In this document: piece after piece, positions 39,992 to 42,901 of the stretch | Layout: the number at the start of each line of letters is the position of its first letter | How positions within the stretch are numbered: position 1 is the stretch's first letter | NCBI GenBank assembly: GCA_030648515.1 | Contig: JAUSHK010000003.1 | Span: forward strand, 1-44,709 | Length of the DNA stretch: 44,709 nucleotides | Source of the DNA: Candidatus Jorgensenbacteria bacterium | GTDB taxonomy: Bacteria; Patescibacteriota; Minisyncoccia; UBA6257; GWB1-50-10 | Reading direction: 5' to 3' | Notes under the pieces: generated by a model | What the model was told of the DNA's origin: nothing | The model's input: the letters and a program-made list of their open reading frames with translations, nothing else | The model's database searches: none | Translations under genes and position numbers: made by a program

Positions 39992-40321
39992 GGGGATGCC
40001 GGGCTTTGACAGAGAAGCTTTCGTGCAAATTGCAGGCCGAGCTGACTACCTCGTAAAACTTGTCAAAAAATAACTGCTAATAAAACAGCGGCGCCGGCTT
40101 TCGCTTTTGCGTAAGTTGGTGTTCCCCTTCTATTTATAGATGGGGCATCGGCCCCGACGTTTCATAGGGAATCGCCGGTGTTATACCTGAAACTCGCCTA
40201 TTGTATTACGACTTCAAATACAATTGGTTAAACCAAAGAAGTCACTCGTTCTTTTCGAACTAAGCTTGTAGAAAATTTGCGTGTAACTCTCTGGACGGCG
40301 GTTCAACTCCGCCCATCTCCA
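39992..40321 (+). ncRNA. ssrA: Transfer-messenger RNA (tmRNA)
   Basis: The 5' end GGGGATGCCGGGCTTTGACAG and 3' end GGCGGTTCAACTCCGCC-CATCTCC-A form the tRNA-like domain; the acceptor stem is GGGGATG with CATCTCC. CCA is not encoded. The conserved upstream sequence CTCGTAAAA leads into the tag frame at 40076: codons GCT AAT AAA ACA GCG GCG CCG GCT TTC GCT TTT GCG TAA give the tag ANKTAAPAFAFA. It ends in small hydrophobic residues as expected for a ClpXP-type degron. It is a one-piece tmRNA of about 330 nt, adjacent to smpB. Confidence 0.95.
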
Positions 40322-40424
40322 CAATCGTCACAGAATTTTTTGTTTTGACATGAAAAGATGTATTTTGCTAGGCTTGGCACAGCAATCCAGTAATTCACAT
40401 TACCAACTAAATTATGGAGGAGTT

Positions 40425-41537
40425 ATGCAAATTAAAAACACAATAACTTATCTCAGCTCCGGCGTAGATTATGGCGCCATGGATCCATTCAAATGCGCTG
40501 CTCAGCTCGCAGCAAAAGAAACCGCGCAGAACCTCGAACTTTATCACGGACTTATCGAGATTGGAAAAAGCCGCGGAGAGAGCGCGTACATTATGGAATT
40601 CCCCGGCTTCTACCTCGCGCATGTCCACGAAGGGCTCGGGACAAAAAACCTCGTCGCTGATGAAATGGGTAAGGATTTTCCGCTTTTTTATGACGCTATT
40701 GCGCAGGATACAGTGGCTATGATTGTAAATGACGTGATTACAGTTGGCGCCCTACCGATTTCGGTGGCAATGCATCTTGCTGTTGGTAGTTCCAATTGGT
40801 TTAAAGAAACGGAGCGTAGCAGTAATTTAATCGCTGGCTGGAAAAAAACGTGCGACATGGCGCAATGTGCATGGGGCGGAGGAAAAACACCGACGCTTCA
40901 GGGCATTATAGAGCCTGGCACTGTAGAATTAAGCGGCTCAGCAATCGGAATAATTTCCCCGAAGAAAAATATTCTCTTGGGAGAAAAATTACAGGCCGGG
41001 GACGCGATTGTGCTTTTTGGAAGCTCAGGCATTCACGCAAATGGGCTGACGTTGGCACGCAAAATAGGCAAAAAGCTCGTAGACGGCTTCCGAACAAAAA
41101 TCAGCGATGGGAGAACATACGGAGAAGCGTTACTTGATCCGACAATAATCTATGTCCCTCTCATGAGAAATCTTCAGAAAGCGGGCATTGAAATCCATTA
41201 TGCCGTAAACATAACAGGCCACGGCTGGAGAAAAATTATGCGGGAACCGCAGGAATTCACCTACATCATAGAAAAAATTCCCAAACCACAGCCGATTTTC
41301 AAGTTTATCCAAGAAAACGGCCCTGTGAGCGACGAGGAAGCGTATGCAAATCTAAATATGGGCGCCGGTCTTGCACTTTTCATGCCTGAGAAATACGTCT
41401 CAGAAACGATATTAATAGCAAATCTCCAATGTGGCATATCAGCACTTCCTGCGGGACACGTGGCACGAGGAAAAAAGAAAGTAGTGATAAGACCATTAGG
41501 AATAGAATACAGTGCAGAAACACTGCGAGTCAGGTAA
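40425..41537 (+). CDS. PurM-like (AIR synthase-related) protein
   Basis: It is a 370-residue protein of the PurM/AIR synthase ATP-binding superfamily. Signs are SSGVDYGAMDPFKCAAQL, the glycine-rich GLGTKNLVADEM, NDVITVGALPISVAMHLAVG, GGGKTPTLQGII, GSAIGIISPKKNILLGEKL and GDAIVLFGSSGIHANGLTLA. PurM makes the imidazole ring in purine synthesis, but no other purine gene is in the window, so the substrate is uncertain. A strong Shine-Dalgarno (TGGAGGAG) fixes ATG 40425. Upstream, TTGACA lies at about 40344 with a poor -10. It follows the tmRNA and precedes the tandem RNA pair. Confidence 0.85.
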   Translation: MQIKNTITYLSSGVDYGAMDPFKCAAQLAAKETAQNLELYHGLIEIGKSRGESAYIMEFPGFYLAHVHEGLGTKNLVADEMGKDFPLFYDAIAQDTVAMIVNDVITVGALPISVAMHLAVGSSNWFKETERSSNLIAGWKKTCDMAQCAWGGGKTPTLQGIIEPGTVELSGSAIGIISPKKNILLGEKLQAGDAIVLFGSSGIHANGLTLARKIGKKLVDGFRTKISDGRTYGEALLDPTIIYVPLMRNLQKAGIEIHYAVNITGHGWRKIMREPQEFTYIIEKIPKPQPIFKFIQENGPVSDEEAYANLNMGAGLALFMPEKYVSETILIANLQCGISALPAGHVARGKKKVVIRPLGIEYSAETLRVR

Positions 41538-41541
41538 ATTC

Positions 41542-41728
41542 TTATCCACACCCCCCACTTGCAGAAAGTGCCGGAAGGCCTAAACTAGTAATTGGGTCAT
41601 TACCATATTTCAGTGCAACGCGGCCATCCTCGGGCCGAATTATGTGGGCATACAAATGCCCTATCATCAGTTCTTTTTATTTACAGGAAAAAGCCTCGCC
41701 CTATTATCTTATTATGCGAGGCTTTTTT
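41542..41728 (+). ncRNA. Candidate structured RNA, copy A of a tandem pair
   Basis: This non-coding unit resembles the next one (copy B) from its first bases (TTATCCAC, C-rich run, TTG) through CCTAAACTAGTAATTGGG to a shared 3' module: GGCC hairpin, CCGAA, GTGGGCATACAAATGCCC (hairpin with ATACAAAT). It ends in a terminator. Conserved sequence blocks with different stem sequences argue for a selected RNA structure. No known riboswitch or small RNA signature is recognised. Confidence 0.6.
41688..41728 (+). terminator. Terminator of RNA copy A
   Basis: AAAAAGCCTCGC and GCGAGGCTTTTTT, a 12 bp stem with T6. Confidence 0.9.
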
Positions 41729-41748
41729 ATTTTCCGGCACTCCTAAAA

Positions 41749-41935
41749 TTGTCCACCTCCCCCTTGTAAGCAACGGCCAGAAACCTATACTATTAACTGG
41801 GATTGGTGCTATCCACAAACCCAAATCCCAACATGGTCTGGCCACTATCACTAGTGTTTCCGGACCGAACGTGCGGAAATACAAATCTGCGCGGCTCTTT
41901 TCATAAAAAAGCTCTAGTGATCCTGGGGCTTTTTT
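41749..41935 (+). ncRNA. Candidate structured RNA, copy B of a tandem pair
   Basis: It begins TTGTCCACCTCCCCCTTG and has CCTATACTATTAACTGGG where copy A has CCTAAACTAGTAATTGGG. It then has a TGGGATT/AATCCCA stem, a GGTCTGG/CCGGACC stem followed by GAA, and a GCGGAAATACAAATCTGC hairpin carrying the same ATACAAAT. It ends in its own terminator. Same length as copy A. Confidence 0.6.
41905..41935 (+). terminator. Terminator of RNA copy B
   Basis: AAAAAAGCTCTAG and CTGGGGCTTTTTT, a stem with a few G-U pairs and T6. Confidence 0.88.
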
Positions 41936-42019
41936 ATTTGACTCTAGTCAAGCCGGCGTGTTATGTTTCCTGAAGCAGATTAAGTGAATATAAACCTATA
42001 TAGAACAGAGGGGACAGCC

Positions 42020-42316
42020 ATGGAAGAAATAGAAACAAAAGAAGGGAGTGAAATCGCCGTTGTCTTTATGCAATTCACCATTAAACTTAATGGAGATAGT
42101 GAATTTTTTGTTGGTAAAACCGCCGATGACATTCTTCTTGAAACAAACAATGGAGTAATGTACGAAGGAAAAGAATACGGTGGATACAAAAAGGTAACTC
42201 TTAAGCGCATTGAGGCAATAAAAAAATTGGACGCTATAGCGTTAGAAAACGCGATTAATTCAGTAAAAAGCGGGCTTCAAAGTGTCGCTTTCATAGTTTT
42301 AGAAAAAAGGCGATAA
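42020..42316 (+). CDS. 98-residue orphan protein
   Basis: It is a small, charged, soluble-looking protein (MEEIETKEGSEIAVVFMQF...). An alternating pattern suggests beta strands in the first half, and a helix runs at about 68-90 (KRIEAIKKLDAIALENAI). It has no signal peptide and no motif I recognise. Shine-Dalgarno GAGGGGA supports ATG 42020, and a strong terminator follows. An in-frame GTG lies 36 bp upstream but lacks a ribosome site. It stands directly after the tandem RNA pair, but the terminator between them argues for separate transcription. Confidence 0.7.
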   Translation: MEEIETKEGSEIAVVFMQFTIKLNGDSEFFVGKTADDILLETNNGVMYEGKEYGGYKKVTLKRIEAIKKLDAIALENAINSVKSGLQSVAFIVLEKRR

Positions 42317-42333: not shown

Positions 42334-42360
42334 AGAGCCGATTAAAACCCGGCTCTTTTT
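42334..42360 (+). terminator. Terminator of the 98-residue gene
   Basis: AGAGCCG and CGGCTCT stem followed by TTTT; the infC -35 box starts 3 bp further on. Confidence 0.9.
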
Positions 42361-42362
42361 AT

Positions 42363-42391
42363 TTGACTCCTCCCACAAAGTGCCTTACTAT
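42363..42391 (+). promoter_or_regulatory. Promoter of the infC-rpmI-rplT operon
   Basis: TTGACT (42363-42368), 17 bp, TACTAT (42386-42391). Six bases later is an in-frame ATC (42398), the same spacing as between -10 boxes and ATG codons of other genes here. Confidence 0.75.
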
Positions 42392-42397
42392 ATTCTC

Positions 42398-42901
42398 ATC
42401 TACACCAAGATCAATAACCAAATAACCGCGCCGGAGCTTCGGGTCATAGACGAGCACGGAGCAAACCTCGGCATACTCCCGCGTGATAAGGCGCTCACCC
42501 TAGCACGGGAACAAGGCCTTGATCTGGTAGAGATTGCCGCGACGGCAAACCCGCCGGTCGCAAAAATCATAAGCTTTGACAAATTCAGGTATCAAAAGGA
42601 AAAAGAAGAGAAAAAGCTTTACGTGGCGCAGAAAAAAATCGGCGAATTGAAGCAAATTAGGATTTCGCCGCGCGCCGCGAAAAACGACCTCGAAATAAAA
42701 ATAAAGAAAATAGGGGAATTTTTGTCCGAAGGGCACAAGATTGAAATAAGCATCTTCCTCCGCGGACGTGAAAAAGCAAACCGCGACTGGGCGCTTCAGA
42801 AACTCAATAATTTTCTTACAATGATAAAAGTACCGCATGTCGTAACGCTCTCCCCTCGCCCGGGCGGACGCGGGTTCGTAAGCCAAATCGCAAAAAAATA
42901 A
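42398..42901 (+). CDS. infC: Translation initiation factor IF-3, probable AUC start
   Basis: IF-3 keeps 30S subunits free and checks the start codon. The family body is complete: KINNQITAPELRVIDEHGAN, REQGLDLVEIAATANPPVAKI, the linker KFRYQKEKEEKK, and a C-terminal domain with QIRISPRAAKNDLEIKIKKI, GHKIEISIFLRGREKANRDW and LSPRPGGRGFVSQIAKK. No ATG or Shine-Dalgarno precedes it. A GTG at 42380 lies inside the promoter. I place the start at ATC 42398, 6 bp after the -10, giving MYTKINNQI. IF-3 genes typically use AUU, AUC or AUA as an autoregulatory start. ATT 42392 is an alternative. Confidence 0.93.
   Translation: MYTKINNQITAPELRVIDEHGANLGILPRDKALTLAREQGLDLVEIAATANPPVAKIISFDKFRYQKEKEEKKLYVAQKKIGELKQIRISPRAAKNDLEIKIKKIGEFLSEGHKIEISIFLRGREKANRDWALQKLNNFLTMIKVPHVVTLSPRPGGRGFVSQIAKK

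Follow-up and report, generated by a model that had tools for sequence, protein, structure and literature searches.

Two tandem predicted small-RNA genes with DnaA-box-like promoters upstream of infC in a Candidatus Jorgensenbacteria genome

The window analysed here comprises the first 44,709 nucleotides of contig 1 in a Candidatus Jorgensenbacteria genome of the Parcubacteria type (690.8 kb in 5 contigs). It contains, in this order, a tmRNA (39992-40324), an AIRS-domain gene (40350-41537), two non-coding units arranged head to tail, denoted U1 (41542-41733) and U2 (41749-41937), a 98-aa orphan ORF (42020-42316, plus strand) and infC (42363-42901, plus strand), which encodes IF3 domains and served as the positional anchor in the comparison with relatives. 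The orphan ORF is distinct from the RNA units and has no match in Pfam or PHROGs. As the preliminary description had it, this gene comes with signals of its own, namely a separate promoter immediately 3' of the U2 terminator (TTGACT, 18 nt, TATGTT; 41938-41967, plus strand), identified by a consensus scan and in the sequence, and a terminator (42334-42360). A further predicted promoter (TTGACT, 17 nt, TACTAT) adjoins the coding frame of infC.

Small ORFs that differ from one another are located just upstream of infC in the window (42020-42316) and in same-family genomes (loci L045, L052, L058), as if this interval were a site of gain and loss of such ORFs. Directly before the IF3 frame, a -10 element (TACTAT or TATCAT) is present both in the window (42363-42410) and in many relatives (e.g., L037, L040, L044, L045, L059), and infC accordingly looks, from its sequence context, like a leaderless gene with a non-AUG start. 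Elsewhere in the window, a reverse transcriptase gene (PF00078; 9588-10589, minus strand), which in our reading resembles those of diversity-generating retroelements, adjoins a 143-aa ORF with no Pfam match.

The two tandem non-coding units of ~187 bp with ordered sequence blocks that had been described previously are indeed present (~190 bp each in our delineation). The blocks that they share comprise TTRTCCAC with a C-run, a -35 element (TTGYAR), a 16-nt spacer and a -10 element (TAWACT), that is, the strongest of them (TTrTCCAC with the C-run, and CCTAwACTA), initially taken for RNA motifs, are promoter elements instead. In U1, the upstream box TTATCCACA and the C-run occupy 41542-41556 (plus strand), and the layout is TTATCCACACCCCCC, 2 nt, TTGCAG (41559-41564), 16 nt and TAAACT (41581-41586), with the promoter (41559-41586, plus strand) delineated from the sequence and from alignment A4 with relatives. 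In U2, the box TTGTCCACC with its C-run (41749-41763, plus strand) belongs to the layout TTGTCCACCTCCCCC, TTGTAA (41764-41769), 16 nt and TATACT (41786-41791; promoter 41764-41791, plus strand). A simple consensus scan lists the U2 promoter, which is also evident in the sequence; the U1 promoter is absent from the picks of the same scan. We take the U1 box to be an exact match to the DnaA-box consensus and the U2 box to be a degenerate copy; in both promoters this DnaA-box-like element is placed directly upstream of the -35.

Downstream of these promoters, all on the plus strand, folding delineates a U1 RNA body at 41593-41687, with the start placed ~7 nt past the -10, and a U2 RNA body at 41798-41904. 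In U1, the 5' hairpin (HP1) is weak and is followed by HP2 (CGGCC..GGCCG, 41621-41637) and HP3 (GGGCA-UACAAA-UGCCC, 41646-41661). A firm HP1 is predicted in U2 only (41798-41830), along with HP2 (41835-41866) and HP3 (41871-41892), the latter with AAUACAAA in the loop; the loop of U2 HP1 contains another box-like sequence, CTATCCACA (41809-41817), with AACCC right behind it. Each unit ends in an intrinsic terminator, and both are strong, as had been claimed: -16.8 kcal/mol with a T-tract in U1 (41688-41733) and -13.6 kcal/mol in U2 (41905-41937), each folded alone. The units were also rightly called structured given that, from their likely starts, both transcripts fold better than dinucleotide shuffles (z = -3.96 for U1 and -6.32 for U2). 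Neither matches any Rfam 15 family at or above the gathering threshold, in agreement with the earlier failure to recognize a known class, and a permissive Rfam search of the window (E<=10) yielded for U1 and U2 only sub-threshold rows at chance level.

To compare the units with each other, we cut them right after the -10 hexamer and again ahead of the terminator, and scored the parts against 1000 dinucleotide shuffles. The whole units are clearly alike (local score 63 vs 24.5 +/- 4.5 for shuffles; 0/1000 shuffles reach the score), and so are the promoter parts, i.e., the first 43-45 nt (32 vs 15.3 +/- 3.1; 1/1000). The bodies past the -10 score near the shuffles (local 26 vs 20.3 +/- 4.1, 119/1000; global, 34/1000), so the likeness is carried mainly by promoter DNA. 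Thus, the proposal of homologous RNAs stands for the units as wholes and is marginal for the RNA bodies: U1 and U2 are duplicates or share a promoter, with the likeness of their RNA bodies nearly lost. The short blocks still shared by the bodies, CCGAA, ATACAAAT in the loop of the last hairpin and CTCTTTT, are only suggestive. Stems that preserve pairing, another element of the preliminary description, can be drawn manually for both HP2 and HP3, but the stem lengths and loop sizes of these hairpins differ (6 vs 8 nt in the HP3 loop), the hairpins of U1 and U2 have no common register, and RNAalifold, run on two-sequence U1/U2 alignments from which covariation is unprovable, finds no common fold that includes the hairpins predicted from each sequence separately.

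The specificity of the promoter was assessed with a two-part matrix (box and -10) trained on six relatives, with the window left out. U1 ranks first in the entire window on both strands, with 22.1 bits, a score reached in 0 of 40 simulated windows, and U2 ranks third with 13.2 bits, which alone is not significant (23/40 simulated windows); the second-best site (9246) lies within a gene. An nhmmer profile built from the relatives' promoters matches U1 weakly (E = 1, rank 3) and does not match U2. A sequence-only model, R1, derived from eight promoters including those of the window, has, at E<=0.5, no matches in the window's genome other than U1 and U2.

Among the 42 same-family genomes, which include no other member of the genus of the window's genome, infC was found in 37, and the upstream DNA was retrieved for the window and 36 relatives, two of which (L050-L051) were covered in part only. 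A comparable unit precedes infC in 6 of these 36 relatives, four of them in one genus, g16 (G022, G023, G024 and G025), the others being G035 and G009. All six combine a box of this type with an extended -10 (TGnTATACT; TGGTATAGT in G009), an RNA that contains hairpins and a terminator right before infC. The pattern TTRTCMACNNCCNCCN{10,36}TAWACT, derived from the window and relatives together, has 11 sites in 9 of the 244 genomes of the order (2 in the reversed control), and all six sites in the family, two of them in the window's genome and one each in G023, G024, G025 and G035, are at the locus upstream of infC, with degenerate versions in G022 and G009. In 33 genomes of other families, inspection by eye revealed no such unit upstream of infC; there, tmRNA-like 3' ends are often found right before infC, and ARAGORN detects a tmRNA in 6 of 13 loci of the family.

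The RNAs upstream of infC in the relatives also fold better than shuffles (z = -2.8 to -5.3), and an Rfam search of the six loci retrieved only a tmRNA. The four g16 RNAs are homologous to each other (z about 5-21), with RNA sequence kept over ~90 nt, and in alignment A3, 10 of the 16 pairs that are predicted show two-sided changes that keep pairing; almost all of them belong to the stem of the terminator. The 5' block GAAC..AGTTCRAAAGTTT is present in 5 of the 244 genomes (2 in the control); the fifth, G039, carries it 8 nt behind an R1 promoter match, on a contig that differs from that of its infC, and this homologous unit away from infC argues for a stand-alone gene. The G022 RNA resembles one in G090, of another family (0/500 shuffles), where the adjoining gene is one that we recognize as clpP. 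In that other family (genus g57), DnaA-box promoters before multi-hairpin RNAs with terminators adjoin a ClpP-like gene (L126, L133 and L145, in G087, G090 and G086, respectively).

U1 and U2 agree with the RNAs upstream of infC in g16, G035 and G009 in promoter class and position and differ in the transcribed part. No likeness of the U1 and U2 bodies to the relatives' RNAs was detectable: in the 23 comparisons that involve U1 or U2, 2.4-99.6% of 500 shuffles reach the score; the best were U2 with G009 (12/500) and U1 with G087 (20/500). A blastn search with the 403-nt stretch against the 42 same-family genomes found, besides itself, only terminator-like scraps, and the three-block pattern ACTANTAA..CCGAA..TACAAA gave 4 matches in the 244 genomes, fewer than the reversed control, the only convincing one being the window's own. 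The widespread covarying RNA family envisaged at the outset was, therefore, not found in these searches; it is the promoter, the architecture and the position upstream of infC that reappear in relatives. A single RNA family that would comprise U1, U2 and the relatives' units is hypothetical, with bodies only marginally alike between U1 and U2 and undetectably so beyond them.

The promoter type itself extends much further. The pattern TTATCCACAN{20,34}TATACT occurs in 114 of the 244 genomes of the order (4 genomes in the reversed control; table counted by hand) and in 26 of 192 genomes of a phylum-wide sample (6 in the control; also counted by hand). Most of the sites fall between genes, ahead of pilin-like and HU-like genes or of hairpin RNAs: 10 of 30 box-TATACT loci are inside an ORF of at least 100 aa, compared with 242 of 300 positions picked at random from these loci, and some of these 10 look like conserved coding sequence rather than promoters. 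At E<=1e-3, R1 matches 16 genomes outside its training set where ~0.24 would be expected, the E-values being rough. Among 23 further R1 loci (one, L142, was left out as mislocated), several lie before genes whose sequences we recognize as encoding type IV pilins, HU and an ABC ATPase; roughly six are followed by non-coding sequence that contains hairpins along with a terminator. Promoters with TTATCCACA are seen before pilin-, lexA-, dnaN- and HU-like genes (e.g., L065, L066, L072, L073, L074, L123, L130, L131, L138, L140). Tandem short hairpin transcripts (DnaA box, TTGACA, TATACT, ~45 nt, T-run) are predicted in G202 and G203 (L143, L144), each of which has 4-5 R1 matches.

DnaA is encoded in the window's genome, and its control of U1 and U2 is plausible judging from the boxes. 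This genome also codes for a 369-aa protein that combines Bac_DnaA_C and Sigma70_r4 domains, both above the curated Pfam cut-offs, with a Cys-rich C-terminus (G000:C4:77087-78193, minus strand; L190:604-1713). At a threshold of 1e-12, matches that extend past the DnaA domain into the C-terminal part are confined to 3 of 244 genomes (G000, G072, G173), the relatives in G072 and G173 being nearly full-length, and the promoter carriers G022, G023 and G025 have no match. This fusion protein, thus, cannot be the general reader of the promoter class, although a role in the window's genome alone is possible.

Taken together, these observations indicate that U1 and U2 are real units that are absent from Rfam and are probably small-RNA genes with weak conservation. 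Given that infC and the 98-aa ORF have predicted promoters of their own, the units are best read as stand-alone genes rather than leaders or riboswitches, and the suggestion of tandem small RNAs made in the preliminary description is the one we favour. With reasonable, although far from complete, confidence, we propose that they are two tandem, independently transcribed genes for small RNAs of ~140 nt, with promoters of the DnaA-box-like class, two to three hairpins and their own terminators. Each unit would start at its own sigma-70-type promoter with a DnaA-box-like element (TTATCCACA and C-run in the prototype) and would be transcribed alone up to its own terminator, and the ORF and infC would be transcribed from their own promoters right behind the upstream terminators. 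An activator bound just upstream of the -35 can touch RNA polymerase; DnaA is the obvious candidate for the reader of the box and might modulate U1 and U2. From the stand-alone layout, the RNAs may be expected to be trans-acting, either through base pairing or through binding to proteins. Their bodies probably diverge fast, with the promoter and terminator kept; the units are located in the stretch that separates tmRNA from infC, and there the six same-family genomes carry one unit each with the same promoter type and layout.

An unlikely alternative is that the units are cis-acting leaders or attenuators, riboswitch-like or with L20-type autoregulation, whose conditional terminators control the ORF and infC-rpmI-rplT. 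The position upstream of infC, common to six relatives, is compatible with this, and in U2 the segment CTAGTGAT of the terminator is perfectly complementary, over 8 nt, to ATCACTAG in the apical part of HP2, as an antiterminator would require. However, the predicted promoters of the ORF and infC lie past the terminators, the -10 right before the infC frame recurs in many relatives, what follows the U1 terminator is another promoter and no gene, the homologous G039 unit is not beside infC, and there is no match to the Rfam L20 leader or any riboswitch. An antitermination switch was rejected as a candidate: the 8-nt complement is present in U2 only, and U1 complements are limited to 5 nt.

Rather improbable, too, is the notion that the units have no RNA function and are promoter-terminator cassettes serving as DNA, for DnaA binding or titration or for operon insulation. 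The better conservation of box and promoter than of RNA between U1 and U2, and the further box-like CTATCCACA in U2 at 41809, fit this idea, but titration loci contain clustered DnaA boxes, and here the boxes are single, just before the -35 and unclustered; moreover, the bodies of U1, U2 and the relatives fold beyond shuffles, and one genus retains ~90 nt of RNA sequence. A divergent housekeeping RNA missed by the Rfam models, such as 6S RNA, is very improbable: CPR RNAs can be divergent and a tmRNA is nearby, but even the permissive search yields no Rfam row at or above the gathering score of its family, there are two differing tandem copies, and the predicted U1 and U2 folds are rows of separate hairpins instead of the single long, closed hairpin of 6S RNA with its central bubble, seen only loosely in G035.

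If the small-RNA gene interpretation is true, a reduced genome gains, with U1 and U2, sRNA genes that have names and can be tested. Of the two results, the promoter class has the wider reach and is of greater interest. Tentatively, and with the odds against it, we suggest that the order uses DnaA-box promoters (TTATCCACA, often with a C-run, just upstream of the -35) for pilins, DNA-maintenance genes and fast-evolving multi-hairpin small RNAs, tying regulatory RNAs to the replication cycle, with U1 and U2 as a duplicated member. Such a class might provide a handle on the timing of pili and RNA expression relative to DNA replication in regulator-poor cells. In the portions of the literature available to us, a search retrieved no small-RNA or promoter-class study for Patescibacteria, and from these sources almost nothing seems known on either subject.

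Bacterial intergenic genes for trans-acting sRNAs have their own promoter, a length of 100-150 nt, hairpins, an intrinsic terminator and no ORF. U1 and U2 are like them in promoter, size, hairpins, terminator and lack of an ORF, and differ in having no Rfam family, a fast-evolving body and a DnaA-box-like promoter element. The L20 or infC operon leader (Rfam L20_leader) is a structured RNA with a terminator upstream of infC-rpmI-rplT; U1 and U2 share this description and position, but they do not match the model, infC has its own predicted promoter downstream, an ORF intervenes and there are two copies. According to a published review, DnaA can activate or repress promoters with DnaA boxes and can stabilise RNA polymerase at E. 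coli nrdAB (PMC8203912). A DnaA box at the promoter is common to those systems, as far as they are covered there, and to the units described here, being exact (TTATCCACA) in U1 and degenerate in U2; unlike them, the present class is characterized by a single putative box with a C-run just upstream of the -35, across the order and before small RNAs.
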